From Buxus sempervirens (taxonomy: Eukaryota; Streptophyta; Magnoliopsida; Buxales; Buxaceae), in contig OX387194.1 of assembly GCA_947561395.2 (NCBI GenBank), forward strand, positions 19,330,048-19,394,047: a DNA stretch of 64,000 nt, in the 5' to 3' direction. A program made the translations under genes and the position numbers. The notes under the pieces were generated by a model. That model was not told where the DNA came from. It was given only the letters and a program-made list of their open reading frames with translations, and did not search any database. Shown in pieces: positions 1-63,520 of the stretch. How positions within the stretch are numbered: the stretch's first letter is position 1; each line of letters begins with the position of its first letter.

Positions 1-170
1 TGGACCGTACTGTGTATACGGTTTTCTCGAAAAATTCAATTTTAATCAGTTTTTCCCACTAAATCTTATTTCTTTAACCTTTAAATAATGATAAAGGGAA
101 ATGAGTTTGAATAAAATGCTTCAAAAAATAAATAAATAAATAAAATGTGAGAGAAAATCCTTGGGCCTCT
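1..170. other. AT-rich flank with one 19-bp hairpin
   Basis: The stretch is A/T-rich and has no ORF. Positions 4-22 hold a dyad (ACCGTA...TACGGT) of the same form as the hairpins in the alpha LTR at 12796-13020. It may belong to the 5' leader of the gag element that follows. The 5' LTR of that element is not visible in the window. Confidence 0.5.
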
Positions 171-1412
171 GAAAGCCTTTGAATTTCAGACTTTTCCTCA
201 AAACTCTTTGGGCCTCTGAAAGCCTTTGAATTTCAGACTTTTCTTTAAAACTCCTTGGGCCTCTGAAAGCCTTTGAATTTCAGACTTTTCCTCAAAACTC
301 TTTGGGCTACTGAAAGCCTTTGAATTTCAGACTTTTCTTCAAAACTCCTTGGGCCTCTGAAAGCCTTTGAATTTTAGACTTTCCTTCAAAACTCTTGGGG
401 CCTCTGAAATCCTTTGAATTTCAGACTTTTTCTCAAAACTCCTCGGGCCTCTGAAAGCCTTTGAATTTCAGACTTTTTCCTTTGGGCCTCTGAAAGCCTT
501 TGAATTTCAGACTTTTATCAAAAATCCCCGGGCCTCTGAAAGCCTTTGAATTTCAGACTTTTATCAAAAATCCCCGGGCCTCTGAAGGCCTTTGAATTTC
601 AGACCTTTTCTCAAAAATGCCCTTGGGCCTCTGAAAGCCTTTGAATTTCAGATCTTTTGGGCCTCTGAAAGCCTTTGAATTTCAGACCTTTTTTCTTTTG
701 GGCCTCTGAAAGCCTTTGAATTTCAGATCTTTTGGGCCATTTGAAAGCCTCTTAATTTCAAACATCCATTTCATTTTTGGGCCGTCTATAAGCCTCTGAA
801 TTATAGACAATCATATCCTTTGGGCCTCTAAAAGCCTCTGAATTTTAGACAAATCATTTCTTTGGGCCATCTAAAAGCCTCTGAATTTTAGACAAATCAT
901 TTCTTTGGGTCGTCTATAAGCCTCTGAATTATATACATATATCCTTTGGGCCGTCTAAAATCCCCTGAATTTTAGACACAACCTTTGCTTGGGCTGTCTA
1001 AAAGCCTCTGAATTTTAGACAAATCATTTCTTTGGGCCATCTAAAAGCCTCTGAATTTTAGACAAATCATTTCTTTGGGCCGTCTATAAGCCTCTGAATT
1101 ATAGACACATATCCTTTGGGCCTTTGAAAGCCTTTGAATTTCAGATCTTTTTCCTTTGGGCCTCTGAAAGCCTTTGAATTTCAGATCTTTTTCCTCAGGC
1201 CTCTAAAAGCCTTTGAATTTCAGACCTTTCTCAAAAATCTCTGGGCCTTTGAAAGCCTTTGAATTTCAGGCCTTTTTCAAAAATACCCCTGGGCCTCTGA
1301 AAGCCTTTGAATTTCAAACCTTTTGCAAAAAATATCCCTGGGCCTCTGAAAGCCTTTGAATTTCAAATCTTTTTCTCTTTTTGTGGGACCTGTTGGAAGC
1401 CCTAGAATATTC
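171..1412 (+). repeat. Tandem array of about 29 covarying hairpin units ahead of gag
   Basis: The consensus unit is GGGCCTCTGAAAGCCTTTGA followed by ATTTCAGAC and a T/A-rich spacer, repeating every 32-57 bp. Each unit is a hairpin with a 6-bp stem. Most units pair CTGAAA with TTTCAG. A middle block (about 775-1110) pairs CTATAA with TTATAG or CTAAAA with TTTTAG. One unit near 735 pairs TTGAAA with TTTCAA, and the last (about 1390) pairs TTGGAA with TTCCAA. Both arms change together, so the dyad is kept while the sequence drifts. The array lies in the untranslated leader of the retroelement and ends about 65 bp before the gag reading frame opens. Confidence 0.85.
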
Positions 1413-1477
1413 CAACAATTCTAAAAAAAAAAAGAAGCAAATAAAGAAAAAAAAATCCAAACTCGTGTTCACCCAGC

Positions 1478-3288
1478 TTGCACATAGGCATTCATAGGCA
1501 TGTGAATGAGATTAAATGGGTATTGATATTTTCCCTTTATTTTTGCCAGGTACCAAGTACACTTGCAACCATAGCTCCTGTAACCAGATCAAGAGCTCGC
1601 GCCATGAATCCCATTGAGACTGAAGCTGATGCTCCTCACCCAGATTTAGCCCTGCTTCAGGAGCGGGTGGCAGGACTAGCCCGAATGCTAGTGAACATAC
1701 TATCAGTACAGGCCCAACAAGTTCAAGCCCAGAACCAAGCATCCACTTCCAACCAAGCACCTCCACCTCAAATCAATATTCCACCTCTGGTTCAACCTAT
1801 TCCTGAACCCACCCCGGAACCTATACTGATCAGGGGGGAGACGGTTGAGTTTGAGAAAGAGAAGGAAAAAGAGAGAATGAGGGATGAGATGGAAAAGAAG
1901 TTCATGCATAGGCTGGAGATTATTCAGGACGAGCTAAGGGAAGTGAAAGGGATACGTAACCTTGGGGGCACCACTTTTGAAGATCTGTGCCTATACCCCG
2001 ATGTATGTCTACCGGCCAAGTTTAAATGCCCAGATTTTGATAAATATGATGGCACTGGCTGCCCAATGAGCCATTTGAAGTTATACTGTGGGGCTTTATG
2101 CCAGTTTGGCCGGGATGACGGCATACTAATTCAACTATTCCAGAGGAGTTTAATTGGAGCTGCTTTGAAGTGGTTTACCACTTTGGATCATGGGAAAATA
2201 AGAAGGTGGAAGGATTTAGCAGATTCCTTTTTGGCACAATACAGGTTCAACTCTGAGATTATACCAGATAGGTATGACATGATGAGGATGACAAAGAGAA
2301 ATGATAAGACCATAAGGCAATATGCTAAAAGGTGGAGGGAGTTGGCTGCACAAGTCAAGCCACTCGTGGGAGAACCAGAAATGATTTCAACTTTCATCAT
2401 GACATTGGGGCAACCATTTTACAGTCACTTGGTGGGTCAAACTACCACCAACTTTGCTGCCCTAGTGCAAGTGGCAGACAGAATTGAAGATGGGATCAAG
2501 TCTGGGAAAATAGCTGATTATTCTGCAGTGTTGAACCAGGAAGCTTCCACCACTTTCTCTACACAAAAAAGGAGAATGGTAATGGAAGAATAAAGAATGA
2601 AGAAAGGATAGAAGCAGAAGTGAATATGGTGCAACTTCCTAGGGAACCCTTTCAAATCAATGCCCATCCACCTCCTATCAAGCCAACCCATCAATTTCCT
2701 TTGCTGCCTATTCAAATTAATGTCCCTTCTGCACAGCATGTGAAGAAAGAAACAGAAGTAAGGAAGAGAAGGGAATTTTTTAAACTGCCTATGAGACCAT
2801 CTGAGCTTTTGCATACTTTACTTCAAAAGGGTTATGTGACTTTGAGGTTGCCAAATCCTCATGCAAGAAAAGGGAAGGGTTATGATCCATCTGCAATTTG
2901 TGAGTATCATATGAGTAGTCCAGGGCATACCACAGATCGTTGCTTGGCCCTAAAGCATGCAATTCAGGATTTGCTGGATAATAACTCTTTATCATTCAAT
3001 TTAGTCACTCCCATCCCACCTACCGATAACAATGGGGCAGGCAGCTCAAATGCAATAGGGACAATTTTCTCTGGAGAAAGAAGATTTGACCCTTCTCAGT
3101 TTATCGCTCCTATTGGTCCAACAGTCAGGGTTTATCTTGGAAGAAATGCTCCTGGTTATGAGCAGGAAGGCTTGCCTTACTCGGCAGGAGAAAGAAATTT
3201 TCTGAAAAAGAAAGAAAAGTCAGCTTTTGTCTTTGAGAACGGGGGCAATTTTCGAATTCCCACGTTCTCTGAAAAGAAACCTGCATAA
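1478..3288 (+). pseudogene. gag: Frameshifted gag polyprotein of a Tat/Ogre-type Ty3/Gypsy retrotransposon
   Basis: Two overlapping frames, 1478-2593 and about 2578-3288, together encode a gag protein, the capsid/nucleocapsid of an LTR retrotransposon. The first frame holds the capsid-type Retrotrans_gag domain at roughly residues 180-300; recognisable pieces are LPAKFKCPDFDKYDGTGCP, GAALKWFTTL and FLAQYRFNSE. The second holds the Tat-type motif CEYH...GHTTDRC, a zinc-knuckle-like element followed by ALKHAIQDLLDNN. The frames differ by one base, and the shift most likely lies in the six-A run at 2565-2570. A good acceptor (pyrimidine tract plus CAG, ending 1549) lies inside the upstream end of the first frame. 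Codons before 1549 may therefore be intronic, with translation starting at the ATG at 1603. No protease, RT or integrase follows. Lineage is inferred from motif resemblance, not from a search. Confidence 0.85.
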
Positions 3289-6200
3289 AAAGAATGCACA
3301 TTTCTTGAGGATCCTAAGGAGCCTTGTTCTCAGGAAGTGATTTTAATAAAGGTTCTTCAAAAAAAAAAAAAGATTTTCCCCTTTAACATTTTCATAGAAA
3401 AAAAAAAGTTTTTAGCAAGGTCCTTTTACTTATGAATCATATCTCTTATTGAATTTCATTGAGTTGAATATGACTTTGACATTGGGCTCAATTTTGAGAC
3501 CAAAATCGAAGAAAAAGACATTTTATATGAAAATTCAAATCTTTTTAAGTGTCATGAGAAGAATATTCTGTAAAATTATGAAATGACCAATTTTATGGCC
3601 TTTGGAACTAAAGATGACCAACAGTCTTCAACAGAAAAGATAGAAGAAGATTTGAAGTTTCTTCATTAGAATACAGAAAGGATCGCACCACTTACTGATT
3701 CGTTCAAAGGGAAGTTGATAATATTGTTTGAAGAAATTTTGGGGCTTTACACTTGAAAATATAGGAGAAGATCTAACTGTTTCGTTGGAAATAGAATTGG
3801 GCATCATTTGATGGAAAGAATCCAAATTCATAAGATTGATCAAAAGGTGAAGAACTTGTTCATAATAGAAGTTCTATTTGAAGAGGCTTTTATCTTGATA
3901 GAAGTTGAAGAAAAAAGAGAAGAAAAAATCCTGAGCCAGTCATGTAGTACAACTTTACCAAATCTGAAAATTCAAAGTTTTCTTAAAATGATAAGAGGCC
4001 TTTCTTTCTTATATCCCCAAAATTTTTGAAATCTCTAGTTAAACCCTTTGAGCTTGATACATTTTTCCAAGTAACCTAAACTGAGAATTGTAACCCCCAC
4101 ACTGGGGCAAATTTATTAAGACATAAAAAAAAGAGGGAATGAAGGGACAATTATTGAAGTTCAAAAGTGATTTTGAATATGTTTTCAGAAAATGGGGCAA
4201 AGAAATGAAAAAAAAAAAGAAGAAAAAGAAAGAAAAAAGGATTATCAAATACTATTTGGAGAATGTCTTCAAAATTGTGAAGAAATGGATGGAAAAAAGA
4301 ATTTCAATACTGGAGAATAAGTTTCAAATGAAGAAATCAAATTAAGGGAAGAACTTCATTACTGAGGCAATTTTGTATTCATTCCAAGGGAAGAAATGCC
4401 TTAAAAATTACAATTTTAGTTAACCCATTTGATCATATGGTATTTGAGCCTTTTATTCCTTTTCTTTCTAAGAGGAAAGCCCGGAAGGGCGCTACATGGC
4501 AAATAATTAGCTATCTACAAGAAGGAAATCGTCAGAGAGGAAAGCCCAGAATTGGCAGAGATCCAAGTAAAGTCCTCATGTTGGTGGTTATTTTGAGATA
4601 CAGTCACTCTTCAAGTGATTGAGAAAAATTCTCTTTTCAAGACTGAAGCAACATAATCAGAACTATGATATGAATCATCTGTGAACAAGTTGATGGCCAT
4701 CAAAATTGCCATTAGGAAATTATTGCTGAAGTTGAAGTCATAAATTCTCATATCATGGATACAATGGAGAAACAATTGCTCTTCAATTGGATGAAGGAAA
4801 ATGTCTTTCTAGATTGGGGCAAAATATTCAGATTGAAAGAATCGTCATATCTGGAGCATCAATTGACAAGCCGATGGTCATGGGAATGATTCTAAAGGTT
4901 CCGAAGGCTTATTTTGGTCTTTCTTTATTTTCAGAAATAATCTTCTCATTATTCAACTTGATTTTAATTTTTTTTGACTATATGCTAATAAGTGATTGGA
5001 TCATTTTTTCAAAAAAATATAAAAACACAAAAAAGCAAAAAAATATATTTTTGGCCTATGATGAGCATCTATATCTTTTTATAAAACATTGGTTTTGCAA
5101 GCATTAGAGAATTCTGAGGCCACTAGTATAAAACATATTTTCTTATGTTTGCATTTGCATTCTTTTATTAGGGTTTCTTTTTGGCAAAGGTTAAAAAAAA
5201 AAAGAGAGAGAAAAAGAGAAAAAGAAAAAAAAAAGAAAAAGGAAAAAAGAGGATCATCTCTACTGAGGGGCAAATACTTCTTCAAACAATCAAAACTGGG
5301 GCATGCTCAGTGTCTTTCCTTCTGGGTTTTCATTGGAATGAATTACAACATCTGGAAGAAGCAATCAAGCTTTAGTGTTCGAATTTGAAAGAAAAAAAAG
5401 GCTTTGAAGCAATGGCATGTTTTCTTCGTTAAACAAGGGTTCCCAATTCTTCAATCATGAAGAAGGATTTTACTGGGGCAGCAAGAGGCATGAAAGACAG
5501 ATCATGGGTTGTAAAGACATGAGATTAGATCATCAGATTATGATTCTCAAATCCATCAATCAAGATGAGGGCATTCACTTGGGCAATTAAAAAGCATGAA
5601 GACAGGTTATGGGCAGTAAGGGCACATACATCGTTAATGAGAGAGCAAGAAGATAAAGAAGCAAAAGCAAGTTGCAAAATATTCAAGCACAGGTTCGGGC
5701 ATCAAATGGCACCCAGGTATATCAAATAAGAAAATCAATCAGGAAAATTCAAAAAGTGAAAAACATCAAAATCAATTGAGTTTGCAGTGGTCAATTTTAA
5801 ATCCACATTCTTTTCAAAATTTGCTTGTCTCAGATTTCTTTTCATAGCCACGAAAGCTCTAAGAAATCTAAGATAAGGAAGAGACGCCACCCCATCAGAC
5901 TTCAAGCAGGGGTTTCATTGGCTATCTTCGAATCCATGTTTTCATCATTTCTTTGTTTGACCAAAGCAAGTTCAATTAATGAGATGTTTTTCAAATGGGT
6001 AATTTTGAGTTGTGTCTGTTCTTCACTGTTCATTGTGCTACAACTACAGGCCACCTAGAAAGATTTATTTTTCATCATTTTCTCCACACTTTTCAGGAGA
6101 TTAATGTTTATATTAGTTGTAAGTTGCAAGGATTGCCACCTTACCCACTTTTGTTGTAAAATTTGTCTCAAATCTCACTTCATAGCCACGAGTGCTCAGT

Positions 6201-6383
6201 GAGACTAGAGAGGAGGATTTGGCCCTTAAGCTGAGGGACTTTTTAGAAAATCTTCCGCAATGAATTATTTTTACTAAAATCATCTATTTAATCCTTGCAA
6301 AATGCAATTAGTTAGACAAAGATCTCAAAAAGTGCAATTGGTGGGTCTTTTTACTCTCTGCTGGTAATTGGTTTCAATCACCA
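3289..6383 (+). other. Non-coding 3' internal region of the gag-only element
   Basis: About 3.1 kb of A/G-rich sequence separates gag from the polypurine tract. In a full Tat/Ogre element this is where protease, RT-RNase H and integrase would lie. I see no aspartic protease motif, no YADD/YVDD box and no integrase zinc finger. The small ORFs here are lysine-rich translations of purine runs. A short motif related to CTGGGGCAA recurs about eight times, for example near 4101, 4192, 4812, 5262, 5474 and 5580. Confidence 0.7.
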
Positions 6384-6399
6384 GCAAAGAGGGGGCAGC
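6384..6399 (+). other. Polypurine tract next to the 3' LTR
   Basis: The sequence GCAAAGAGGGGGCAGC directly precedes the TGTAGACACC start of the LTR. A purine run ending just before the 3' LTR is the plus-strand primer site of LTR retrotransposons. It identifies the LTR at 6400 as a 3' LTR joined to the gag internal region, not a solo copy. Confidence 0.8.
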
Positions 6400-6494
6400 T
6401 GTAGACACCCCAAATTGCACTAAAAATGAGAAAATAATTGAAAATATTAATTGGGATTTGAAAAAGGTCAAAAAAGTGTAAAATCTGACCAAAC

Positions 6495-6612
6495 TGGTCA
6501 TGACCATATTTTGTTTACGGACTGGTCATACTTGCAGTTGATATACGGTCACAGCATGCCCGTATTAATAATACGGGTAGGGCGCGACAGTAATATATAT
6601 ACGAGCACGGGG
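6495..6612 (+). repeat. 28-bp-period hairpin array in the U3 part of the LTR
   Basis: Four units have ACGG/ACGA ends at 6520, 6548, 6576 and 6604, exactly 28 bp apart. The third unit is a perfect 19-bp palindrome, CCCGTATTAATAATACGGG (6559-6577). The others are imperfect. Confidence 0.75.
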
Positions 6613-6814
6613 GTCTTTGTGCGAATTTTACCTTTTTGATTTTTAAGCCTTATCTGCACCCAAATATCTCTCTTGGATAACCGAATTCTCTTATTTATCT
6701 GTTCGAATTATCTCATTTATCCTTGTGGATAAAGGATTGGCATGATCTTGTATTTAACTCAAACTGAAACTCTATCTTGCCAAACCTTGGACCAACCATA
6801 CCCTTGGGTTCGCC

Positions 6815-6920
6815 TATAAATAGAGGGCCTTTCCTCAAGCAAAAGGCCACGAAATTTTGAAGTCTAAGAAGCTCCAAGAGAAGAAGAGGAACCCCTACTG
6901 CTCTGCTTGCTCAATCCAGG
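6815..6920 (+). promoter_or_regulatory. LTR promoter: TATA box and leader splice donor
   Basis: TATAAATAG at 6815-6823 is a strong plant TATA box, predicting a start near 6845-6850. At 6919/6920 the sequence AG|GTAAGT is a near-perfect splice donor. Together they predict a short leader exon of about 70 nt. The same TATA-donor arrangement is seen in the LTRs at 8566, 12683, 14767, 21881, 45810 and 49404, which suggests it is functional. Transcription itself is inferred. Confidence 0.65.
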
Positions 6921-8565
6921 TAAGTCCCTTTTTCCTTTTATTTTCTGTCTTCAATTCTAGAGATAATAGGATCTTCTCTATTGCTGTAGAATAAGGCCAT
7001 CTTTTGTACTTGTCTTCCTAAACTTGTCTCTAAGTACCTCAAGAGTCTCTCTAGCCGTAAAACGTGAAGAGAGAGCTAGGGGAAAAGAGAACAAGTGGAT
7101 TCCTAGAATAGAACCCCATATCTGTTTTTCTTTTTTTTTTAAAAGAAAGCCTCTGATTGTGTTTGTATAACCAAACCTATCTCCAAGTACCTCAAGAATC
7201 CTCTCTAGCCGTAAAACGTGAAGAGAGAGCTAGGGGAAAAGAGAACAGGTGGATCCGTAGGGTAGACCCCCATGTGTTTTAATCTGTGAGATGTGGCTGC
7301 TTTGAATATCCTGATCATGTTTTAATGCTTTTTATGATGAATCTGAATGAATCCATGAATCTATGATGTTTATAGCATGAGATCTCCACTTTTTTTTTAT
7401 AAAATTTGGATTTTCCACATATTTGCACCTACAGCACTGTTTTCGTGATTTTTGTGATTTTAGGCTAAGATCTTGGATCTATCATGATCAATATAGTAGA
7501 TCTGGATCCAGAAGTCTGAAAGTAAATTTCAGGGTTTCATGATATGGTTTTTAAATCGTTTTTCATTATTGAGAGAAGACCTTACGGTCTAAATTGTTCC
7601 CTTTTGATGTTTTTCATCAACGTGGGTATTTTTGATTTTGATTTTTAGATTTAATGTGAAATTTGGGCTCTACCTATATCCTGGACTATTCAAGTTCAAT
7701 TTTGAAATATTTTATAAAAATCATATTTTTCTAGATTTCTAGAATTTGACTTGAAGCCAGATTTTTGGATTTTTCACTTTAAATTGATTTAATTTGATTT
7801 TATCTCAATTTTATTTTGATCATGAAACCCTATGAATGGTATGATCAGACTTGAAAGTTCTGGATCAATCAGACTATTCGTATGAAAAAACCATACATTT
7901 TTCTCTTTTTTGTGATTTTTATAGCAAGCCTTTTTTCTTTGAAAAACATGAACAATACCTGGCAACCACCTTGTGTGGATGAATAGGGGTGCCTAACACC
8001 TTCCCCTGTTCATAACCTAATCCCCTTACCCATCTCTGGTTGTTTTTTTAGGAAGGTTATTTTTACCCTAAAAGTGCCTTTTGTGCTTATTTAATATTTT
8101 GGTGTCCATTCACACCTAAATTGAATGGTGGCGACTCTTTGTTTTATTCAATCCCGTGTGATGATTGAGAAAGTCATTGGATTTGATTTTTTCCTATGTC
8201 TCACAAACGCTAAATTAGAATAATCACAATAAGATTCAAGACAACAATGAAATATAATTTGTCCACCTCATGGGACTCATGAAATAGAATACTAGAGAAA
8301 GAGAATATACATGTGCTAATATGCTACCTAACCGAATTACGATGGACTAGCCGCTCTGCAGTCTAGCTATTCAACACCAATAGAAGAACCCAACCATGAG
8401 TTATCATGTACGGCCCAACTAATCCAGGAGTGGGTAACGTAGCGATCGACCAATCCAGGAGCGGTACCATCCTCGAGATAACGGAATGCTTCAGACACAG
8501 AATTCAAACTCCTCTTATACACATTTCATGTACTAGCTATTCTATGGATCCATATAACTGCTAAG

Positions 8566-10218
8566 TGTGAGACATGGGAAAAATCAAATCCAATGACTTC
8601 CTAATCATCACACGGGATTAAATTAAACAAAGAGTTGCCACCATTCAATTTAGGTGTGAATGGACACCAAAATATTAAATAAGCACAAAAGGCAATTTTA
8701 GGGTAAAAATAACCCTCCTAAAAAAACAACTAGAGATGGGTAGGGGGATTAGGTTATGAACAGGGGAAGGTGTTAGGCACCCCTATTCATCCACACAAGG
8801 TGGTTGCCAGGCATTGTTCATGTTTTAATAAAGGAAAAAGCTTGCTATAAAAATTCATGAAAAATCATAATAAAAAAAACAAAATTGTATGGTTTTTTCA
8901 TACGAATAGTCTGATTGATCCAGAACTTTCAAATATGATCATACCATTCCTAGGGTTTCATGATCAAAACAAAATTGAGATAAAATCAGATAAAATCAAT
9001 CTAAAGTGAAAAATCCAAAAATTTGTCTTCAAGTTAAATTCTAGAAATCTAGAAAAATATGATTTTTATAAAATATTTCAAAATTTAACTTGAACATTTC
9101 AGGACATAGATATAGCCCAAATTTCACATTAAATCAAAAAATCAAAACCAAAAATACCCACGTTGATGAAGAACATCAAAAGGGGAGAACTTACATCGTA
9201 GGGTCTTCTTTCAATAATGAAAAACGATTTAAAAACAACTTCATGAAACCATAGAATTTACTTTCAGGCTTCTGAATCCAGATCTACCATATTGATCATG
9301 ATAAATCCAGGATCCTAGCCTAATATCACAAAAATCACGAAAACAGTGCTGTAGGTGCAAATATGTGAAAAATCCAAATTTTAGCAAAAAGTGGGGATCT
9401 CATGCTATAATCATCATAGATTCATGTATTCATTCAGATTCATCACAAAAACAATTAAAACATGATCAAGATATTTAAAGCAGCCACATCTCACAGATTA
9501 GAGCACATGGGGGTCTACCTTACGGATCCACTTATTCTCTTTTCCCCTAGCTCTCTCTTCACGTTTTACGACTAGAGAGGATTCTTGAGATACTTGGAGA
9601 CAAGTTTAGGAATACTAGATACAAAAAATGGCCTTATTCTACAGCAATAGAGAAGATCCTATTATCTTTAGAATTGAAGACAGAAAATAAAAGGGAAAAG
9701 GGACTTACCTGGATTGAGCAAGCAGGGCAGCAGAGATTCCTTTCTTCTCTGGGAGCTTCTTAGACTTCAAATTTTCGTGGCCTTTTGCTTGAGGAAAGAC
9801 CCTCTATTTATAGGCAAATCCAGGGGCATGGTTGGTCCAAGTTTTGGCAAGATAGCGTTTCAGTTTGAGTTAAACACAAGATCATGCCAATCCTTTATCC
9901 ACAAAGATATTTCGAACGAATAAAGATATAATTCGCTCATTTAAAGGGATATTGGACTAAAGATAAGGCTTAGAAATCGAGAGAAGAACAGAACTCGCAC
10001 GAGTCTGATGCGCCCGTAAATGATTTACGGTCCAATGGTTCCCGTATATGTATTACGGGCGCTGCGTGCCTGTATACAAAATTCGGGCGCGCTTAGCCCG
10101 TAGATACAATACGGGCAAGGCTTAAATTATTCATTTTCATGCATTTTTGGCTTGTTTTAAATTCCAATTAATGTTTTTATTATTTTCTCATTTTGTAGTG
10201 CAATTTGGGGTGTCTACA
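8566..10218 (-). mobile_element. Solo LTR, alpha family, with perfect 5-bp TSD CTAAG
   Basis: It begins TGTGAGACATGGG and ends GGGGTGTCTACA, the reverse complement of an alpha LTR. CTAAG at 8561-8565 and 10219-10223 is the target duplication, so the ends are exact and the copy is a solo LTR (1653 bp). The TATA box is at 9804-9812 and the splice donor boundary at 9708/9709, both on the minus strand. It is inverted relative to the LTR at 6400-8205 and only 360 bp away. Confidence 0.9.
10013..10115 (-). repeat. 28-bp-period hairpin array in LTR U3
   Basis: Four dyads begin at 10013, 10041, 10069 and 10097, exactly 28 bp apart. The first contains the perfect palindrome CCGTAAATGATTTACGG. The second and fourth pair CCCGTA with TACGGG. 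Confidence 0.8.
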
Positions 10219-14766: not shown

Positions 14767-17279
14767 TGTGAGACATGGGAAAAATCACCGGGATGATTTC
14801 TCCTCCGTCAACATACGGGCTCAACGTAAAATGTGGGAGAGTCGCCACCATTCAGATTTTTTTGAGGTGAGAATGGACACCAAAAGATTCAAAATAAGCA
14901 AAAAGAGCTAAAAGGCAAATTCTAGAGTAAAAATAACTCTACTTGAAAATCAAATCCAGACATGGGTAAGGGGATTAGATTATGAACGGGGGAAGGTGTT
15001 AGGCACCCCCATTCACCCACACAAGGTGGTTGCCAAGTGTTGTTTATGCTAAAAAATAAGAAAGCTTACTAAAAATCATTAAAAAACCTTGAAAAAGGAC
15101 AAATGTATGATATCTTCACATGAAAATCCAAATGAATTCCAGATCCTCTTTTATGTCAATATCACTTCTGGAATATCACCAAAAGATGGAAATCAAAGCA
15201 AAAGTTGCACAAAACCAAGTTGAGTTAAATCCGAAAAATTCGGTAAAAGCAAGAACCATTTGTCTTGAAATCATTCAAATCCAATTTAAATTGAATCAAA
15301 CCAAATTCATTTGAAAGATTATGATAGATAGAAGACTCATGCAAATTTTCAATCCATTCCAATTAAAATCCTAGGAGTTATTCTCCTTTGGAATCTACTG
15401 CTGGAGATAATTAAAAGTGATAAGTGGGCAACTTTGGAAAATCATTTAGAAACATCGGCTTCATATAAATCCATTAAATTTGGTGTGAGTGAAGTCTGTA
15501 TAGCCATATTTCAAAAGAAACTAGCCTCATACAAAAATTCATTCGGATGTGCCTTGGGTGGTCTCCCGAACAGGCCGCGAAGATCACAGATTTACCCAGA
15601 AAAGTGCTGTTGAGCAGTTCTGAGTAAATCTGTTACCAACAACACAAATGGAGTCAAAAAAATTATGAAACCAACTGGATTTGAAACTAGACTCCCAAAG
15701 GAAAACTCAGAGACAAGAATCATTCGAATCGGACTTAAAACGAACACATGGCGCTCAGTCGAAGTGACAAGTTGCGTATTCAGACCTGAACTGACCTATC
15801 AACTTCGACAGAGAGGTGTCAAAAATCCGCTTGATAGAAATTAATGAAATTTTACAGGCATAAACTAAACAGCCCCACCTTTCCCATGGCTCTAGAATCA
15901 CTCAAAAATTCATCCGGACGACGAAGTTACGAGTGTCCGAAGTTGGGGTACAGTTGCTGTCAAGTTAAGCCCTTTTTGAGTAAAATCCATTTAAAACAGT
16001 GATCCAGTGTGTGGAATCCGTGCAAGATGAATTAAAATCACTTGAAAAAGTGTTGAAGAACCTCTAGAAATAATAGGATATAAGCTTGGCTCACCATTCT
16101 CTCTGATTGGAGAGAATATGCCAAAAAGACCCAATATTGAGCAAAAGTGCCCAAAAACCGAGAGGTTGGACCTAAAGGCCTTTAATACTCAACAAAACTT
16201 GCTTGAAATTAATTTGAAAATCAATAGGAAATATCCCAGAATTGTTTGGGGCTATTTATTCGAGATCTATCACAATGACGGTAATAGATCCAAAATACAA
16301 GCCAAATCCGACAAAACAAGTGCTATGTGTGTATGTGTATAAAAATCCATTTAAGAACAATATAACAACATATGGCATGCATTCATATCAATCGAAAGGG
16401 TTCTAGAACAACCTAGGGTTCCGTCCCATTATCGTTTCCCTTAGTTCTCTCTCCCCGTTAAACACGGTTCTTCAAGATAATCTTGGGGTACTTTGAATAT
16501 GAAACGGTTTTCATAGATTCCAAAGGCTTATTCAAATAGGTTCTAATACTAGGATCAATTCCCAGTCTCGTTTCCCCTAGATCCCGCCTTCACGTTTTAC
16601 GGCTAGGGGGAGTCTCGAGGTACTTTGAGTAGGAGAAGGTTTTCATACACATAGAAGAGGCCTTATTCTACAGAAAGGTAGAAGAAGAGATCTAGATCTA
16701 GAATATAAAAATAGAAAAATAAAGAGAGGTTTGAGGCTTACCTGGGCTTCTGGAAGCAAGATTGCAGCGGTTCCCCTCTTCACTCGGAGCTCTTTGATCT
16801 CCAACTTTTTGGCAGAAGTTCTTGGCAAGAGTTAATGGCCATTTGCTTGAGGAGGAGTCTCCTATTTATAGGCAAAGGCTAGGGCTAGGGTTTGCATTAT
16901 GGTAGACACAAAATGATGTCTAGAGTCCACCAGCCTTAACCCTAAGGCTATTTCTGAGATTTCCACTCTTTTAATGAAGGATATGATGGTAAAAAGTGAA
17001 AACTCTCGGAAAACCCTAATTTGAGTAGAAAACATGTATCCGACATATCAGGCCGAATACACAAGCACTTATATATATCCGACATATGATGTCGGATACA
17101 TTAAGAGCTACTTATATCCGACAACTTATGTCGGATATGAAGAGGTATGCTTGTATCCGACCTGAGTTGTCGGATACAAGGAAAAATGCACATTTCTCAA
17201 ATTTTGTGTTGGTTTCAAAGGAAATAATGATTTTTGTCAATTATTCTTCATTTTTACTGTGCAATTTGGGGTGTCTACA
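14767..17279 (-). mobile_element. Solo LTR nested in another LTR, perfect TSD GTGCC
   Basis: It begins TGTGAGACATGGG and ends GGGGTGTCTACA, length 2513 bp, minus-strand alpha family. GTGCC at 14762-14766 and 17280-17284 is an exact 5-bp duplication, and removing the element restores the host LTR. The TATA box is at 16861-16870 (reverse) and the donor boundary at 16741/16742. The CTTCACGTTTTAC box is at 16588-16600. Most of 14767-16100 shares text with 21881-23300. Confidence 0.92.
17037..17176 (-). repeat. 39-bp-period hairpin array in LTR U3
   Basis: Four 23-bp dyads start at 17037, 17076, 17115 and 17154, exactly 39 bp apart. Stems are 8 bp, mostly TATCCGAC paired with GTCGGATA, with 7-nt loops. 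Here the stem carries CCGAC/GTCGG where the copy at 23945 has CCGGC/GCCGG. Confidence 0.85.
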
Positions 17280-21880: not shown

Positions 21881-23944
21881 TGTGAGACATGGGAAAAATC
21901 ACCGGAATGATCATCCCTCCGTCAACACACGGGCTCATCGCAAAAATGGGAGAGTCGCCACCATTCATGATTTTGGGGTGAGAATGGACACCAAAATGTT
22001 GAAAATCATTAAAAAAGTGCAAAATGCCAATTCTAGGGTAAAGATAACCCTACTTGAAAATCAAATCCAGAGATGGGTAAGGGGATTAGATTATGAACGG
22101 GGGAAGGTGTTAGGCACCCCCATTCATCCACACGAAGTGGTAGCCAAGTGTATGTTCATGCAAAAATAAGAAAGCTTGCTAAAATCATAGAAAATCTTAA
22201 AAAAGGACCAATGTATGATATTTCCACATGAAGATCTAAATGGATTCTAGATCTTCTCTTATATCAATATAATTTCTGGAATATCTCAAAAGATGGAAAT
22301 CAAAGCACAAGTTGCTAAAAAAACCAAGTTGAATCAAATCCGGAAAATTCAGTAAAAAGTATGCCATTTGCCTTGAAATCCTTCAAATACCATTTTAAAT
22401 TGAATCAAACCAAATCCATTTGAAAGATTAGGGTAAATAAGAGTCTCATGCAAAATTTCACTTCATTCCGATAAAAATCCTAAGAGTTATGCTCCTTTGA
22501 AGTTGCTGCTGGGGATTTGTAAAAATGATAAGTGGGCAACTTTGGAAAATTGTCTAGAAAAATCCACTCCATAAAAATCCACGAAATTTGGTGTGATTGA
22601 AGTCTGTATGGCCATCTTTCAAAAGAAACTAGCCTCATACAAAAATCCCTTCGGATGTGCCTTGGGTGGTCTCCCGAACAGGCCCCGAAGATTACAGATT
22701 TACCCAGAAAAGTACAAATGAACAGTTCTGAGTAAATCGGCTACCAATAATTCAAATGGAATCCAAAAATTATGAAACTAATTGGATTTGAAAATAGACT
22801 CATAAAGGAATACTCAGAAACAAAAATCACTCGAATCGGACTTAAAACGAACACATGGCGCTCCGTCGAAGTGACAAGTTCTGTATTTGAACCTGAACTG
22901 TCCACTTAACTTCGACAGAGAGGTGTCAAAAATCCGTTTGATGGAACTTTATGAAATTTGGTGGACATAAACTAGACAGCCTCACCTTTCCCATGGTTCT
23001 GGAATCGCTCCAAAATTCATCCGGACGATGAAGTTATGAGCGTCCGAAGTCAGGGTACAGGTGCTGTCCAGTTAGGCCCTTCTTCAAGAAAACCAAATTC
23101 GAAAAAGTGATAAAGTGTGTGAGATTCGTGTGAGATGAGTCCGAAACTTTTGAAAATCACTTGAAAACACTCCAGAATTTGATTGAGGCCATTTATTGGA
23201 GATTTATCACAATGAATGTAATAAATCCCCAAATGTGAGCCTATTCACCAAAAAAGTGTAATATGTGTGCAAGAGTGAAAAACCAAACAACATATCATGC
23301 ATATAGATTCAACAAGATAGGTTCTAGCATAGCCTAGGGTTCCGTTCCATTATCGTTTCCCTCTGTTCTCTCTCCCCGTTAAACACGGTTCTTCGAGATA
23401 ATCAAGGGTACTTTGATTATAGAACGGTTTTCAATCATTCAAAAGCCTTATGCTACATAGGTTCTAGCACTAGGGTCAATCCCCAGTCTCGTTTCTCCTA
23501 GATCCGCCTTCACGTTTTACGGCTAGGGGAGTCTTGAGATACTTTGAGCCGGGGAAGGATCTCCACACATACAAACAAGGCTTTATTCTACAGAAAGGTA
23601 GAAGAAGAGATCTAGATCTAGGAATGTAAAGACAGAAAATAAAAAGAAAAGTTGAGGCTTACCTGAGTTCTGGAGGCGATTCCGCAGCGGTTTTCTTCTT
23701 CTCTTGGAGTTCTTCTTTGCGAGAATTCAAAACAAGAGTTGAGTCCATTTGCTTAAGGAGGAGTCTCCTATTTATAGGCAAAGGTTAGGGTTAGGGTTGG
23801 TGAGAATGGTAGACACAACATAATGTCTATAGCCCACCAACCTTAACCCTAAGGCTATTTCCGAGATTTCCCCTCATTTAATGAGGGATATGATGGTAAA
23901 AGTGAAAAGCTCTCGGAAAACCCTAATTTTGAGCAAAACTAGCG

Positions 23945-24084
23945 TATCCGGCATGTCAGGCCGGATACACAAGTACCTTAATGTATCCGGTCTATGATGC
24001 CGGATACACTGAGGTCTACTTGTATCCGGCATTGTCCACCGGATACAAAGAAGGACACTTGTATCCGGCCTGAGTTGCCGGATA
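23945..24084 (-). repeat. 39-bp-period hairpin array in LTR U3
   Basis: Four 23-bp dyads start at 23945, 23984, 24023 and 24062, exactly 39 bp apart. The consensus is TATCCGGC, a 7-nt loop, then GCCGGATA. The 16-bp spacers are less conserved than the stems. Confidence 0.88.
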
Positions 24085-24129
24085 CAAGGAAAAAAAGCCT
24101 TTTTTTTTCGAATTTTAACACAGGCAATA

Positions 24130-34945: not shown

Positions 34946-36471
34946 ATGTTTCGACTGAGCAACAATCTTGTGGGGATCTTGAACTTCGTAACGTTTCTCC
35001 TCTCGATTCCGATACTGGGAGCGGGGATATGGTTGAGGACGCATGGCAATACCGTGTGCGAGAGGTTTCTGGACAAGCCCCTTATCGTTATCGGCATTTT
35101 TCTCATGCTGGTTTCTCTAGCGGGGTTGATCGGCGCTTGTTGCCGTGTTTCATGGCTTCTCTGGATTTACCTCTTCGTGATGTTTCTTCTTATTGTCCTC
35201 CTGTTCTGTTTCACGATCTTTGCCTTCGTTGTGACCAACAAAGGGGCTGGACAAGTGGTGTCGGAAAGAGGGTACAAGGAGTACAGGTTAGGGGATTACT
35301 CGAACTGGTTACAGAAGAGGGTTAACAATAACAAGAACTGGAACAAAATCATGAGTTGTTTGCACGACAGCGAAGTTTGTAAGAGTCTTTCTGAGGATAC
35401 GGATAAATCCTTCCAGAAGTTCTATACTAAGCATTTGTCTGCGATTCAGGTACTTCATTATGCAGATTTTTGATAAATTTTTCTATTTTCATTTATGGGT
35501 TGTGATTTAAATTTCTAGGGATTTCTTGTTGATTTCATCTTGTTGATTTTAGTCTTCTATTTTCTATATTTTGTAGGGGATTTCTTGTAGGTTTCATGAA
35601 GTAATTTAGAACATATTAATGGATCTCATGTCTATTTGAGATAATTTTCTTCAATCTTAATATAGATCCCGGGGTTCTTGTTACTGGGGGTGTTTTTTGA
35701 CCCTTTTATTTTTATTTTTATTGTTCTGGAGTTTTTTTTTCTAAACCTTTCATATGTTCTTGAATTTCTGATAGATTTAGGATGTGATACAGTTCGTGTA
35801 ATGGGCTTCCTTCAAACAGAACAAACTGCTTGACTTTTACTGGCCTCTTTTATCTGCACTTGTTTCAATGTTTTGTCTTGGGCTATTCTTGGGATTTCTT
35901 GTTGATTTTATGAAATTATTTAATTTATTGGTTTATCACTTCTTGTTAAAGATGTTTTTTTTTTCAGTTCTGGAGGGATTCCAGGATCTTAGTTTTTGGG
36001 ATTTCATTGAATTCTGAAAACACTTAATGTGTTATTGTATTTCTGATACAATCAGGGGAAAAATTTGCTTCATTTTATAATGGCTTCTTTCATTTGAACT
36101 TCATAAATATTCTAACAACATGTTTTTTGCCCTTTTGCTTGTTCTTATTGCAGTCTGGTTGCTGTAAACCTCCAATGGAATGTCAATTCACATTTGTAAA
36201 TGCAACCTTCTGGACAAGGCCCGCAACGGTCACAAACTCGACGAACCCAGATTGCACAACATGGGATAATGATCAGACCAAACTCTGCTACAAATGCCAG
36301 TCTTGCAAGGCTGGGGTGATCGATAACCTCAAGAGGGACTGGAAGAAGGTGGCAATTGTGAACATTGTCTTCCTCATCTTCCTTATTGTTGTCTACTCTG
36401 TTGGATGCTGTGCTTTTAGGAACAATAGGGAGGACAATGCCTATCCTGGACGGAAAGGAGGGTACCCTTAA
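34946..36471 (+). CDS. TET8-like: Tetraspanin, TET8-like (two exons, 273 aa)
   Basis: Exon 1 is 34946-35449 (168 codons) and exon 2 is 36154-36471 (105 codons plus TAA). The intron 35450-36153 begins GTACTT and ends TTATTGCAG. The joined protein is 273 aa, the usual size for plant TET8-type tetraspanins, and has no internal stop. It shows four membrane segments at about 8-30, 46-66, 71-96 and 234-256, a short first loop, and a large extracellular loop (about 97-233). That loop has the plant signature GCCKPP (170-175), further cysteines at 138, 145, 178, 202, 213, 216 and 219, and NxS/T sites at 184 and 196. Tetraspanins organise membrane microdomains and exosome-like vesicles. It is the only intact host gene here. 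Exact orthology is inferred from family resemblance, not from a tree. Confidence 0.93.
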
Positions 36472-43231: not shown

Positions 43232-44674
43232 CACTACAAAAATGAGGAGCATTAGCGACGGCTTTTAGCGGCGGTAACCAAATTCCCGCCGCTAAAAGCA
43301 CTATTACCGGCGGTAAAAGTACTTCCCGCCCCTAAAAATTAGTTTACCATTTTTTCCGCGTGAAAATTTTATGGCGCCTTTTTTCAGCGCGAAATAGCTT
43401 TTAGCGGCGGTAGCTACCGCCGCTATATTAAGTTTGCCGGCGGTAACATAACTACCGCCGGCAACAAGTTGGCGGGAAGTTCCCGCGAAGACTTTTAGCG
43501 GCGGTAATCTAATTCCCGCCCCTAAAAGAGGACTTTTTGGGGTGGTAAATTGTTTACTGCCCCTAAAAGCCATTCCTAAAAAAACAAAAATTACTTTTAG
43601 CGGCGGTAAACAAGTTCCCGCCCCTAAAAGCCATTTATTAAAAACAAAAATTACTTTTAGCGGCGGGAAGTTTTTAAAACCGCCGGTAAAAACGAAATAA
43701 AACAGGTTTTACCGGCGGTTAACCGCCGGTAAATAAGTTAGTCATTTTAAAAAAAAAAAGCACAGAGTTATTGAGAGACTTTTTAGGGGCGGGAATTTAT
43801 TACCACCGGTAAAAGCAAAAGCGGGAATTTTTCCCGCATCCTAAATCAAATGAATTTCGTTTAACTTTTAGCGGCGGTAACTACCGCCGCTAAAAGCTAA
43901 AGCGCCAAATTTGAAATTTTATTCGACTTTTAGCGGCGGTAATTTTGTTACCGCCGCTAAAAGTCTCTTCTATATATACAAACCGAACCTCTTCTTCTTC
44001 CCCTTATATTTTTCTTCTTATCTTTTTCTTCTTGTCTCTGTCTCTCTACAGGTATGTATTTTTCTTTTTATTTATTATTTATATTTTCTTTTCTCTTTTG
44101 TAAAATTATTCTCTCACTAACATCCTAGTATTTCTCTCTCTGCAGGTTTCTTCAAAGGTTTCACTCTCTCTCTATCTCTCTTTCTCAAACTCTCTCTATC
44201 CCTATCTCTTTCTCTCTCTATCTCTATCTCTCTTTCTCAAACTCTCTCTATCCCTATCTCCTTCTCTCTTTCTCTTTCTCTCTCTATCTTTATCTCTCTT
44301 TCTCAAACTCTCTCTATCCCTATCTCCTTCTCTCTCTCTCTCTAAAAATCTCTGCTGCCGAATGGCAGCAGAAATTTTTTTATTTTTTAAATATGTTTTT
44401 AGCGGCGGTAATTTACCGCCGCTAAAAACCAAATTACCGCCGCTAAAAACCATTATATTGTGTTTTTTTATTTTTTATATTTTTTTACCGGTGGTATTAT
44501 TCCGCCGGTAATGGCTTAGAAATAGCGGCGGTAAGGAAATTACCGCCGCTAAAACCTTTACCGTCAGAATTTTTTGCGACGGGAGGCCTTACCGCCGGTA
44601 ATACCTTTACCGGCGGTAATTGTATGTTTACCGGCGGTACCCTACCGCCGGTAAAAACGTGTTTTTTTGTAGTG
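43232..44674. mobile_element. Non-autonomous CACTA (En/Spm-type) element, TSD AGA
   Basis: Ends are CACTACAAAAATGAGG and TTTTTTTGTAGTG, inverted. AGA flanks both sides (43229-43231 and 44675-44677), the 3-bp TSD expected for CACTA. The 1443-bp body is packed with TTTTAGCGGCGGTAA and its reverse complement, often as back-to-back dyads such as GCGGCGGTAACTACCGCCGC. A (CT)n tract lies at 44160-44345. No transposase is present; the ORFs are translations of the repeats. Confidence 0.93.
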
Positions 44675-50510: not shown

Positions 50511-51725
50511 ACACTGAAATGGCCTTTTTTGGAGTTCTGCCATTTGGGGTTGTTTCCAGGGGGTTCCTAGGGGTCTTTTGAGGTTCTGTGGGCCCCTGGG
50601 AAGGCCCACGCAGGTCAGGAGATGGGGAATCCCCCATCCTTTGTCTCTTTTGGTGGTTCCCTAGCAAATGCCAAGGGGGGAAGAGGCATCTGGGTTGTCT
50701 CCTCCACTTGGGATCAGGTATACCAATATGGCAGGGACCAAGGTGTCCCTGCTTGGTTTCCGAAACTCCATCATAGCACACAACAAAGGTCCATAGAGGA
50801 CCCTTTGAATCAAGAACTTGAAGCATGCTCTCACGACTGACCAAAATATGCATGCTCAATACTTTAAACAAGGGTACAGCCACCACATGGAGGGGATTAA
50901 CATGCTTAATGTGTATGCATGCAAGGAGGTAATTTATCATGCATAAACACACGAATGCAACTAAGTAAGTCTAGCACTTGTCACCAACCAACAGAAAAAG
51001 ATTCACACAGCATGCGAGAAACAAGGAAATCAGCAAAGGTGATCACATGCATCCCCTATGAACTATAAAAAGATCTTAAACTAATGCTCCATGATTAAAA
51101 CAAAAGCCTCCAGAGAAGGGAAAGAGAAGGGGGGTTATATGGGGGGTACATGAGATCAGGTTGGGAGAAGCATTCTTCCCCCCCAAGAAAACTCAAAACA
51201 GCGGGTTAAAATAGCATAGAAAAGAGAACTCTCCTACTCCTAATGAACACTATGTGGACTTCTTGACTGTGTTGGACCTCATGCCATGAAAATAAAAGTG
51301 AATGCATGCTTAGGACAACACAAAAATGAACCATGCAAAGAAAGAAGCAAATGTGAGAAAGGCAACAGAAAAATCTGAATTTAATATTTGATGAACACCA
51401 TATGGTGAGGAACCTTACCTGATGGTTTTTTGGCTTCTAGGTGGCGGTGGAGGCACTTCCTTGGGGGTGGTACAGCAGATGGAGACCTTCCTCCTTGACA
51501 GCAGTAGCTCTTGCTCCAATCCTATGTTGGGGTGCAAGTGATGAGAAGGAAGGTGAGAGGAGGGTGAAGTGCCTTGGGGTGGTGTTGTGGGGCTATGGAG
51601 GGCAAAGAGATTTGAAGAAGGGAGGATTTGGGTGAGAAAGAGTGGTGGAAGAAAGTTGAGAAACAGCCAAAGAAGCTAACCCCCGGCCAGAGGTTGCTGC
51701 TGTGCTTTTATAGACAAACTTAATG

Positions 51726-51968
51726 TATCCGGCATTAAATGTCGGATACACTACATGTCCTTTGTATCCGGCATTTAATGTTAGATACACTGAACCCCCT
51801 TTGTATCCGGCATAAAATATCAGATACAAACAAAATTATTTCAAAAATTTAATGCGGCCGCAAATTTGTCGGGGAATCGGCGCGAATCTCGCCGAGCAAA
51901 TCTTTGTATCCGACATTTGAGTCCGGATATGAAGAGGAGAAAGTGTATCCGGCATATTTGGTCGGATA
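51726..51968 (-). repeat. 39-bp-period hairpin array in U3 of the beta LTR
   Basis: Dyads start at 51726, 51765 and 51804 (39 bp apart), then after a 103-bp gap at 51907 and 51946 (39 bp apart). Stems are TATCCGGC-like. The gap contains another dyad-rich sequence (CGGCGCGAATCTCGCCG). Confidence 0.85.
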
Positions 51969-61400: not shown

Positions 61401-63520
61401 CTATGTGATTTGATTTCCCCCTACCAAACTACATTTGTGCCTAACTATTCCATTAGGGATAACATTCTCATCAATCATGAGGTGGCTCATTGTTTCAGAA
61501 AGAAAAAAAATGAAAAAAAAACAAGAATGCAAAGGTTCATAGGATTAAACTAGTCTATCAAGGTATGTTTAGTCTTAAATTAGATTTTGCTAAAGCTTAT
61601 GACAAATTAAGCTGGTCTTTCCTCAAATCAGTGCTGTTGGCTCATGGGTTCAACGCAAGTGTTGTGAACATGATTATGGAATGCGTAACATCTGTCTCCT
61701 ACAGTGTATTACTCAATGGTAAGCCTGTTGGTCACTTCTCTGTTGGGTGTGGAATTAATCAAGGTGACCCCCTTTCCCCTTATTTATTTATTTTGTGTCA
61801 GCAAGTCTTATCATTAGCTCTTATTCGTGCTGAGAATGATGGGAGAATAAGGGGCATTTCTTTGAAAAAGGGTGGTATATCTCTCAATCATCTAATGTAT
61901 GCGGATGATGTGTTTATTTATAGTCACACTACTGAGAGAGAGGCACACACCATTGTTAGACTTTTACACAAATATTGTGTAGAGTCTAGACTATCCATTA
62001 ATAAAGATAAATCTTTTTTGTGTTTCAGCAGCAATACAAGCAACCAAAAGTGAGCAAAGATATGTCAGATCATGGGGATTCAAGGAAAGCAAAAACAGGG
62101 GAAATATTTGGGACTTCCCATCATTGATAGAAGGCCAAAAGCAAGGGACTGTGAGGAGCTGTTAAATAAAATATCTAATATATTGGCTGGGTGGAAAAGT
62201 TTACTTTTGTCCCAAATGGGTAGAGTGGTTCTTATTAATTCTTTTTTAAATGCCCAACCACTACATTTCATGAATTTCTTTTTACTGCCACAAGACAGCG
62301 AACAAAATAGATGGTATGGCTTGAGGATTCTTCTAGAAAAGAAACAAAGAAAATACCCAAGCCTTACATATCGTAAGCTGGGAGAAGATTACCTCACCTT
62401 GGAGAAACGGAGGCCTTAATATCAAGAGAATGAACCTGATGAATAAATCTCTAATTCTCAAAGCCACTTGGAATCTTACTACAAAAAGGATAGGCATTTG
62501 GGCTGCTCTAATAAAAGACATGTACTTCCTCCATCATACCTTCCTTGAGGCAGCATTTCATCATAAACATTCGTATGGATGGTATCAGATGAAGAACATG
62601 GCAGAATGGATACGAAATGAAAGTGGGTGGACAATTGCCAATGGAGTTGAAATAAGTATTCTTTAGGACAACTGGGTGTAAGGAATAGATCAGAAACTCC
62701 AAGTCCAGAAGAACCATCATCTCTTCAAACTGTCAACAATAAATCAGCTACTGCACCCCATGCTCAACACTTGGAATCACAGACTGTTAGCACAATTTTG
62801 GAATGAGGAAACAGTCCACAAAATCAGCTCCACACAGGTTTGTTCATCCTTAAAAAAGGACATCATACAGTGGAAAGGCATTGCTCAAGGTAAGTTCTCC
62901 GTAGCTTCTGCATATAGAGTCTTTGCGAGAATATCTTGTAACAACTCTAACTCCTTGTGGTTAAAGGTTTGGCCTTTAAAGTGCTCTAGTAAGGTGAAAA
63001 TATTCTTATGGAAAAGCCTTCATGATGCTCTCCCAACTGGTGATCTCCTAAGGACTAGGATAGGTAGAGTTGATAACTCTTGCTATTCGTGCAGAGAGCA
63101 TGCGGAGACGACGGAGCACCTTTGGCTATTGAGTCCCTTCGCTTGTGCTCTTTGGTTTAAAGCAATCGGAGGGGCTGCTCAAAGCCTTGGACCCCAACAC
63201 TCCTTCTTCCAATGGTTCAAGCACTTTGCTTCTTTAAAGCCACCTACAATAGCAGTTAACATGATGGATCTTTTAGCAAACGTGGCAAATTTCGGGTTGA
63301 CGGTGTGGAACAACAGAAATGGGGCAATGTTCAATGGCAAAAGCCAGTTAGTTGATGATGCATGCCGAACATACAGGAAACAGCAGGAGGAATCAGTTAT
63401 GTTACAGCTTGAATCTCAAAAACAAGTGCAGCACAACATAGAAAGATTCAACCTTGTTACCCATTTGTGAAAGTCAATTTTGATGGAGCATGGAGTGTAG
63501 CAGAAAGAAGATTAGGTATT
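58494..63520 (+). pseudogene. L1-type LINE: degraded ORF1 and ORF2
   Basis: ORF1 remnants (58520-59157) include a CCHC-like knuckle (FHFSCHFVGHVITPCK, first Cys lost). ORF2 starts at 59477 with MKLIFWNCHGLGQS, the endonuclease N-terminus; LLGDFN and SSDHCPVVV are further endonuclease motifs. RT is recognisable in NDFRPISLCNFLYK (about 61320), DFAKAYDKLSW and GDPLSPYLFILC, with the catalytic MYADD at about 61900. The zf-RVT region FLWKSLHDALPTGDLL (62760-63470 frame) follows, then the start of RNase H (VKVNFDGAWS), where it stops. Stops and frameshifts occur throughout, for example directly after GDFNVMF. A MITE lies in the endonuclease at 59930-60237. It is related to the three-part LINE at 11840-25391. 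Confidence 0.88.
59930..60237. mobile_element. hAT-like MITE in the LINE endonuclease, TSD GGTGCTCC
   Basis: GGTGCTCC at 59922-59929 and 60238-60245 is an exact 8-bp duplication, and removing the insert rejoins the LINE sequence. The ends are CAGTGGCGGAACC and GCTACACTG. The body has about three copies of a GGCAAACCAGAAATTTTAG / CATGAAATATAGAAATTTT block separated by G runs (60077-60099 and near 60170-60222). Confidence 0.87.

Follow-up and report, generated by a model that had tools for sequence, protein, structure and literature searches.

The window analysed here is a stretch of 64,000 nucleotides from Buxus sempervirens (G000:C21:19330048-19394047, in a genome of 677 Mb), and near its start a tandem array of short hairpins sits just ahead of gag in an LTR retrotransposon, with gag present and pol undetected. 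The features of this element are as follows, in window positions unless a contig is named; a slash within a splice site marks the junction.

G000:C21:19326941-19328737, ~3.1 to 1.3 kb upstream of window position 1: 5' LTR
163..1416, + strand: tandem array of 29 hairpin units (unit pattern and TRF), each typically GGGC + 1-2 nt + 7-nt arm + loop GCCTYTGAA + 7-nt arm + linker, the linker nearly G-free
163..727, + strand: units 1-13, mainly type A (TCTGAAA / TTTCAGA), spacing 34-49 nt
734..1105, + strand: units 14-22, one of type E (TTTGAAA/TTTCAAA), the others of type B (TCTAAAA/TTTTAGA) and type C (TCTATAA/TTATAGA), ~43-nt spacing
1118..1367, + strand: units 23-28, type-A-like, several with one mismatch or G.U
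1385..1416, + strand: unit 29, type D (GTTGGAA GCCCTAGAATA TTCCAAC)
1531..1550, + strand: predicted 3' splice site (pyrimidine tract, TTGCCAG/GT), last intron base 1549
1604..2593, + strand: first part of the gag ORF (Pfam Retrotrans_gag PF03732, E 5.3e-12), ended by a stop in the window copy
2620..3288, + strand: downstream ORF in another frame, no Pfam match, probably the remainder of gag (a single frame in many other copies)
3289..6399, + strand: gag-to-3' LTR region, no pol domain detected
6386-6396, + strand: polypurine-like AAAGAGGGGGC, just 5' of the 3' LTR
6400..8205, + strand: 3' LTR (TG...CA), 96.5% identity to the 5' LTR

The element was recognised as an LTR retrotransposon by its paired TG...CA LTRs, a flanking TSD (AATGC/AACGC, one mismatch), a PBS (TGGCGACTCTGCTGGGGAC) two bases past the 5' LTR and a gag of the Retrotrans_gag type. 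The PBS pattern TGGCGACTC[CT]GCTGGGGA was present in 17/20 copies of the family, and a single open gag frame of ~590 aa was found in many of the other copies. Scanning 10 of the 25 ORFs listed between 3290 and 6400 against Pfam gave no pol-like domain and three weak, unrelated matches below cut-off; within the ORFs scanned, the element is a gag-only, non-autonomous one (gag present, pol absent). It had been called gag-only in a preliminary description, which the Pfam scan bears out for this copy, but elements of this lineage that do bear pol carry such arrays as well. The element belongs to Ty3/gypsy and is probably Tat/Ogre-like; the Tat/Ogre placement is a lead, suggested by gag, by a G-patch between gag and RT and by the long leader. 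Elements of that lineage are marked by an additional RNase H (aRH) (PMC6317226). The element's LTR recurs in inverted orientation, perhaps as a solo LTR, soon after the 3' LTR (window 8566-10218).

About 29 hairpins had been described at 171..1412. The array proved real, with 29 units and limits of 163-1416, was also detected by TRF, and contained the stem types named earlier (CTGAAA, CTATAA, CTAAAA, TTGAAA and TTGGAA with their partner arms). Additional to that description are the LTRs and PBS, the pol-bearing relatives with related arrays, the scarcity of G in the linkers and candidate splice sites that would place the array in an intron. A representative unit reads GGGC-C-TCTGAAA-GCCTTTGAA-TTTCAGA, followed by a short linker; the loop of unit 29 is 11 nt. 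The seven-pair stem was entirely Watson-Crick in 20/29 units, complete with G.U in four more (24/29 complete when G.U is allowed) and carried one mismatch in the remaining five. Units were spaced 34-49 nt apart across the array, a lone 80-nt step in one pattern listing spanning a unit that the pattern did not match. A coding role was ruled out because this spacing is mostly no multiple of three and stop codons fall within the unit. No Rfam family matched at gathering score in window 1-8300 or at loci L052, L036 and L040.

A DNA search with the array gave 133 matches, from 40 scored of 1,668 candidates. Twenty copies, including that of the window, were picked by array score and read; these and all relatives described below come from one genome. 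Matches to both array and gag were found in 20/20 copies, as were the dyads (the copies being picked by array match), so that the case held to speak against a structure, namely copies lacking dyad symmetry, was not seen. Each copy carried 20 to 47 units. Among the total of 582, the commonest stems were TCTGAAA/TTTCAGA (233), TCTAAAA/TTTTAGA (176) and TCTATAA/TTATAGA (70), and GTTGGAA/TTCCAAC was found in 19/20 copies. With two stem positions partly free, the unit pattern matched 25,420 times across the genome. Against IMG/VR, the window gag had no relatives and the unit pattern gave two single matches; the pattern had no match in GTDB genomes.

To judge whether the two arms change together, the gag-only units (578/582 parsed, 20 copies) were reduced to 145 distinct rows. 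In these, 95.6% of stem cells were paired compared with a shuffle mean of 88.4%, and 85 cells showed a double change compared with a shuffle mean of 28.7, neither value being reached by any of 500 shuffles. All six controls with slid stems scored far lower on three measures, namely paired cells, cells with a double change, and covariation. Stem pairs showing at least one double change numbered four, a figure matched by 110/500 shuffles and by 3/6 slid controls. Pooling with the pol-bearing relatives (110 distinct rows, 776/779 units parsed) gave 89.9% paired cells versus 78.9% in shuffles and 113 double-change cells versus 41.6 (0/500 in both cases), together with six pairs showing a double change, a number reached by 8/500 shuffles. 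The double changes comprised C-G/T-A/G-C at pair 1, C-G/T-A at pair 2, G-C/A-T at pair 4 and A-T/T-A/G-C at pair 5, and, counted from such types, perhaps six or seven were independent.

The joint change of the arms noted beforehand therefore holds across genomic copies and pol-bearing relatives. Pairing exceeded expectation, where no excess would have spoken against a structure, with expectation defined by shuffles and slid stems rather than by a tree, so that relatedness remains in it, and with perhaps half a dozen events behind the double changes. Exceptions to the rule were also present. Mismatched stems in the pooled set included CTTGGAA/TTCCATG (19 units), CTTGGAA/TTCCAAC (16) and TCTGGAA/TTCCATG (13), and two mismatched types occurred in 8/20 and 6/20 gag-only copies. 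One-sided changes in the gag-only set gave G.U versus A.C 10 versus 8 times at pair 4 and 11 versus 15 times at pair 2. A pyrimidine at stem position 4 matched the genome 22 times compared with 27 for the reversed pattern, none beyond chance. G/C at stem pair 5 with loop GCCTYTGAA matched 16 times (reversed control, 0), four of these units having TCTGNAA arms and three of the four a complementary partner base; we do not claim a new stem type from these matches, which exclude the outer arm ends. The case for selection acting on the fold is fairly good.

Folding of the leader RNA had been proposed as a check, and 851 nt of the array folded globally no better than shuffled sequence (z +1.08 on the + strand, -1.45 on the - strand). 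Global folding was consequently dropped as evidence, and the signal lies in the local hairpins and their covariation, not in overall stability.

The unit listing led to a further locus, G000:C1:3413700 (L031), where a similar array is followed by gag, a G-patch (22.3 bits, cut-off 22) and a reverse transcriptase fragment matching RVT_1, the part read extending from gag to partial RT. Its gag shares 70% protein identity with that of the gag-only family, and its PBS is the same. A search with this gag scored 121 of 9,731 candidates, L031 itself included, all at 92% or above, and we read ~1 kb ahead of gag in L031 and in 20 loci hand-picked from that search. Hairpin arrays were again found before gag, with stems, loops and periods that differ from those of the gag-only arrays; sequence and period thus differ, and what is kept is a row of hairpins immediately ahead of gag. 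Type D units occurred in 21/21 leaders. In the five D-rich leaders examined, the repeat was a composite of 71-77 nt, type D hairpins (CTTGGAA GCCCTAGAATA TTCCAAG or TTTGGAA GCCTCAGAATA TTCCAAA) taking turns with another hairpin, F, whose commonest form, CTTTGGTTGGT TATTTTT ATCAATCAAA, was present in 16/21 leaders. Two of the 21 (L031 and L046) carried B/C/E units together with the relatives' gag; array type thus does not strictly follow gag type, which speaks against a gag-specific code. At G000:C1:8473823-8566747, seven matches to the pol-bearing family's gag lie on one strand at a regular spacing of ~15.3 kb, perhaps as tandem elements.

Ogre elements carry an intron inside pol. Here, an intron was predicted in the leader. 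The acceptor CAG/G was kept in 18/20 gag-only copies, the window copy having it 54 nt 5' of its gag ATG. The donor CAG/GTAAGT was found within the LTR, with the context expected, in 11/20 copies, the sequences read for the others apparently mostly starting downstream of it. In the pol-bearing relative, CAG/GTAAGC and CCCAG/GT occupy the corresponding places. Assuming a start 40 nt after the beginning of the TATA-like CTATAAATAG, the unspliced leader is 4,257 nt with 78 ATGs and the predicted spliced leader 120 nt with none; were transcription to begin over 9 nt upstream of that point, the latter would gain a single ATG, opening a short frame. Splicing of the leader from the LTR donor to the acceptor before gag is thus likely. 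As the array is inside the predicted intron, only unspliced RNA would carry it, along with the PBS.

We tentatively favour reading the array as a repeated cis-acting RNA element, a multi-site tag on the unspliced genomic RNA of the gag-only element and its relatives, and put the likelihood of this somewhat short of even. The leader would be an intron of the gag mRNA, with its donor in the LTR and its acceptor just before gag, and unspliced genomic RNA alone would carry the array. Many small hairpins together would then form a tag read by Gag and/or a host RNA-binding protein, and RNA so tagged would be set aside for packaging and reverse transcription. By keeping the tag, the gag-only family would continue to be processed by its relatives' machinery. 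In favour of this reading are the stem covariation beyond shuffles, the splice sites and the PBS common to the relative, and, as detailed below, the slower change of cores than of linkers, the scarcity of G in the linkers, the + strand folding of the relatives' leaders and the G>A counts in their hairpin F. Against it stand the lack of strand bias in gag-only folding, the unremarkable global fold, the symmetric one-sided changes, the mismatched stem types, the small number of independent double changes, the hairpin F counts being of units, and the loose match of array type to gag type. We infer that the function of the array is either packaging or the control of splicing or export.

The nearest rival, less likely but with an appreciable chance of being right, is that hairpins and pyrimidine-rich linkers keep some of the RNA unspliced or export it, in the manner of the M-PMV constitutive transport element. 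The array lies directly upstream of the conserved acceptor, inside the predicted intron, and its linkers are rich in C/T and nearly without G: across 562 linkers of the gag-only copies (223 distinct), G made up 0.8% and C 25%, compared with 22% G in the leader before the array, 23% in gag, 18.5% in the post-gag region, 18% in the LTR and 15% between array and gag. The G-patch of the pol-bearing relative, just above cut-off, also fits, as M-PMV recruits DHX15 through its G-patch for packaging of genomic RNA (PMC11459146), and retroelements require an export route for unspliced RNA (PMC10309623). However, splicing is itself a prediction here, there is no evident reason why its control should take 20-47 units, and the G-patch parallel is an analogy. 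The reading of a tag and the control of splicing or export could also be one system.

An unlikely alternative, though one that several observations fit, is that the array is a by-product, tandem duplication and template switching during reverse transcription having spread palindromic units, and quasi-palindrome mutation having copied one arm to the other to give covariation without any function of the fold. Expandable tandem repeats are a known feature of Tat elements (PMC7004042), the unit number here ranges from 20 to 47 between copies, the elements studied here have further tandem hairpins in LTR and leader, and an A-U to U-A swap at stem pair 5 would need two steps unless templated. The different rates of change within the unit argue against a by-product. 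In gag-only copies we counted 157 changes in 4,435 linker bases (from the 330/562 linkers with at most two changes from a common form), 47 in 5,013 loop bases and 74 in 7,770 arm bases, so that ~3.5% of linker bases had changed compared with 0.9-1.0% of loop and arm bases, the cores changing ~4x more slowly; random equal-length linker pairs were 70% alike and cores 95%. The faster linkers also avoid G: A>G occurred twice (0.2% per A) and T>C 41 times (1.8% per T), making A>G nine times rarer per base, compared with 0.36% and 0.16%, respectively, in the arms. G avoidance in the linkers is strand-specific; this aside, strand-specific evidence in the gag-only copies is weak, and folding showed no strand bias there (mean z -2.07 on the + strand and -2.17 on the - strand, 6/20 copies).

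Hairpin F of the pol-bearing relatives offered a further contrast, since it contains two G.U and two G-C pairs with all the Gs in one arm. Among 157 F units with at most three changes from the commonest form (16 loci), the two wobble-paired Gs were replaced by A 17 times (6 loci) and 14 times (8 loci), and no such change was seen at the C-paired Gs. Changes against the helix were also seen, the outermost pair showing T>C 33 times (12 loci), a position near the base showing A>C five times, and four further kinds of breaking change appearing once or twice each. Genome-wide, single G>A variants that keep the helix were counted 249 and 371 times and those that break it 36 and 28 times, about ten times fewer. 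These counts, of two sites versus two, are of units and not of events, so that duplication inflates the helix-keeping excess and may alone have spread the F variants; in the places listed, helix-keeping variants often recurred within one array and the others were mostly single. Templated correction should erase G.U pairs, yet both are kept in the commonest form (85/154 F hairpins). Measured against shuffles (40-nt span, 15 shuffles each), the relatives' leaders were also the more stably folded on the + strand, with a mean z of -5.7 compared with -2.4 for the - strand, and with 18/21 leaders in the same direction and L031, L042 and L046, both B/C/E arrays among them, as exceptions.

Translational control is improbable: a structured leader could govern access of ribosomes to gag on unspliced RNA, by shunting or internal entry past the 78 ATGs, and this leader is indeed very long and ATG-rich, with the array ending 187 nt before the gag ATG, but the conserved splice sites point to a short spliced leader almost without ATGs, which would make such control unnecessary. 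Least probable is a DNA-level element in which the palindromes are protein-binding sites or cruciforms, for although perfect dyads are symmetric on both strands, gag-only folding lacks strand bias and the G>A changes in hairpin F would improve a cruciform too, the loop and flanking GGGC are asymmetric and conserved about as well as the arms, and the near-G-free linkers and conserved G.U pairs are strand-specific. The commonest F form keeping its G.U pairs fits RNA better than a cruciform. The cruciform raised in the preliminary description thus becomes less likely, on the conserved G.U pairs and + strand folding of the relatives, the wobble test applying to their hairpin F and not to the units of the window, where one-sided changes are symmetric; the joint change of the arms survives from that interpretation, and packaging, dimerisation, Gag binding and translational control, also raised there, are candidate roles.

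Under the preferred reading as an RNA tag, the individual folds may be more elaborate than hairpins. In types A/B/C, GGGC could pair with the loop GCCY in the order of an H-type pseudoknot, the geometry having a first loop of 1-2 nt and a second stem of 7 bp. No covariation between GGGC and GCCY was found inside the gag-only family (145 distinct rows), and double mutants of stem 1 (GGAC..GTCT) numbered five genome-wide, a count too small to weigh; stem 2 did show the covariation expected of an H-type pseudoknot. In type D, the first RGG base and the fourth loop base were G/C in 135 units, A/T in 33, A/C in three and A/G in one (172/174 units, two being without RGG), essentially as one event. 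The downstream CCC/CCT varies likewise and could instead close the type D hairpin, and shortened D units, CTTGGATAGAGTAGTCCAAG, are without the loop CCC. A pseudoknot of GGGC with the loop GCCY fits the sequences but is unproven. The fullest version of the tag reading would have 20-47 small folds, possibly H-type pseudoknots, in the leader intron acting as a multi-copy identity tag of genomic RNA, its sequence and period turning over while fold and position are kept, common to gag-only and pol-bearing relatives (Ty3/gypsy); so specified, we regard it as doubtful.

In retroviruses, packaging signals and the constitutive transport element consist of one or a few stem-loops with tested function, whereas the array described here has 20-47 units and a proposed function. 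As in our reading of the array, those signals are structured RNAs that mark unspliced genomic RNA (PMC8096270, PMC11459146, PMC10309623), and the G-patch is common to the pol-bearing relative and M-PMV (PMC11459146). Tat elements (Ogre, Retand) likewise carry family-specific non-coding tandem arrays of variable length, but between pol and the 3' LTR rather than between PBS and gag (PMC7004042, PMC11963269). The units here are hairpins with covarying arms, unlike those repeats, and 'hairpin' does not appear as a word in the main text of PMC11963269. TR-GAG elements, a gag-only non-autonomous type, likewise have LTRs, a PBS, a polypurine-like tract and gag with pol undetected; a leader hairpin array was not met for them in the literature surveyed, and here pol-bearing relatives with similar arrays occur in the same genome. 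The plant retrotransposons BARE1/BARE2 separate a spliced, Gag-only mRNA from the packaged RNA and include a parasitic subfamily; BARE is, however, Ty1/copia and splices out 104 nt at the gag end (PMC3735527), whereas splicing here is predicted before gag.

Among open-licence PMC papers, searched by titles and the starts of abstracts, no hairpin array ahead of gag was found. What is new is the unusual combination of structured leader RNA with element-borne tandem repeats, each kind being already known. The separation of translated from packaged RNA in plant LTR retrotransposons is seemingly little known, as is how gag-only elements ride on their relatives. If the tag reading is true, conserved and countable hairpins confined to unspliced RNA would provide a concrete element to delete, count or bind, and tandem repeats in such elements would represent a selected RNA structure and not merely satellite seed. 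The ~25,000 natural units in one genome lend themselves to sequence-function analysis.

A second conserved part of the leader, a block of ~450 nt, lies between the PBS and the array (L009 5132-5592, ~window -917 to -457; L052 2664-3160). Identity between the pol-bearing relative and 19/20 gag-only copies was 80-83% in this block, higher than in the array-to-gag stretch (73-75%, two copies compared). The block looks non-coding because an indel shifts the frame after its ATG, and RNAalifold gave almost no covariation, with both sides changed in 1/118 predicted pairs. Further repeated hairpins with differing stems (for example ATACGGGC..GCCCGT, TATCCGG..CCGGATA) were seen in an LTR (L009 3020-3150) and in leaders (L009 5950-6075, L052 3330-3475).

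Elsewhere in the window, 39-nt tandem repeats, mostly forming hairpins of 9-12 bp with stems TGTATCCGGC..GCCGGATACA and TATCCGACAT..ATGTCGGATA, lie at 17032-17161, 23982-24091 and 51724-51828. Direct repeats at 14767-17186 and 21881-24094, 80-85% identical and probably the LTRs of another element, have such 39-nt hairpin repeats at their ends. Hairpin-like repeats with CTTTTAGCGGCGGTAA / CCCGCCCCTAAAAG occur at 43485-43570. Finally, a tetraspanin ORF was found at 34946-35473, and ORFs matching RVT_1 and zf-RVT, which may belong to a LINE-like element, at 61565-63470.
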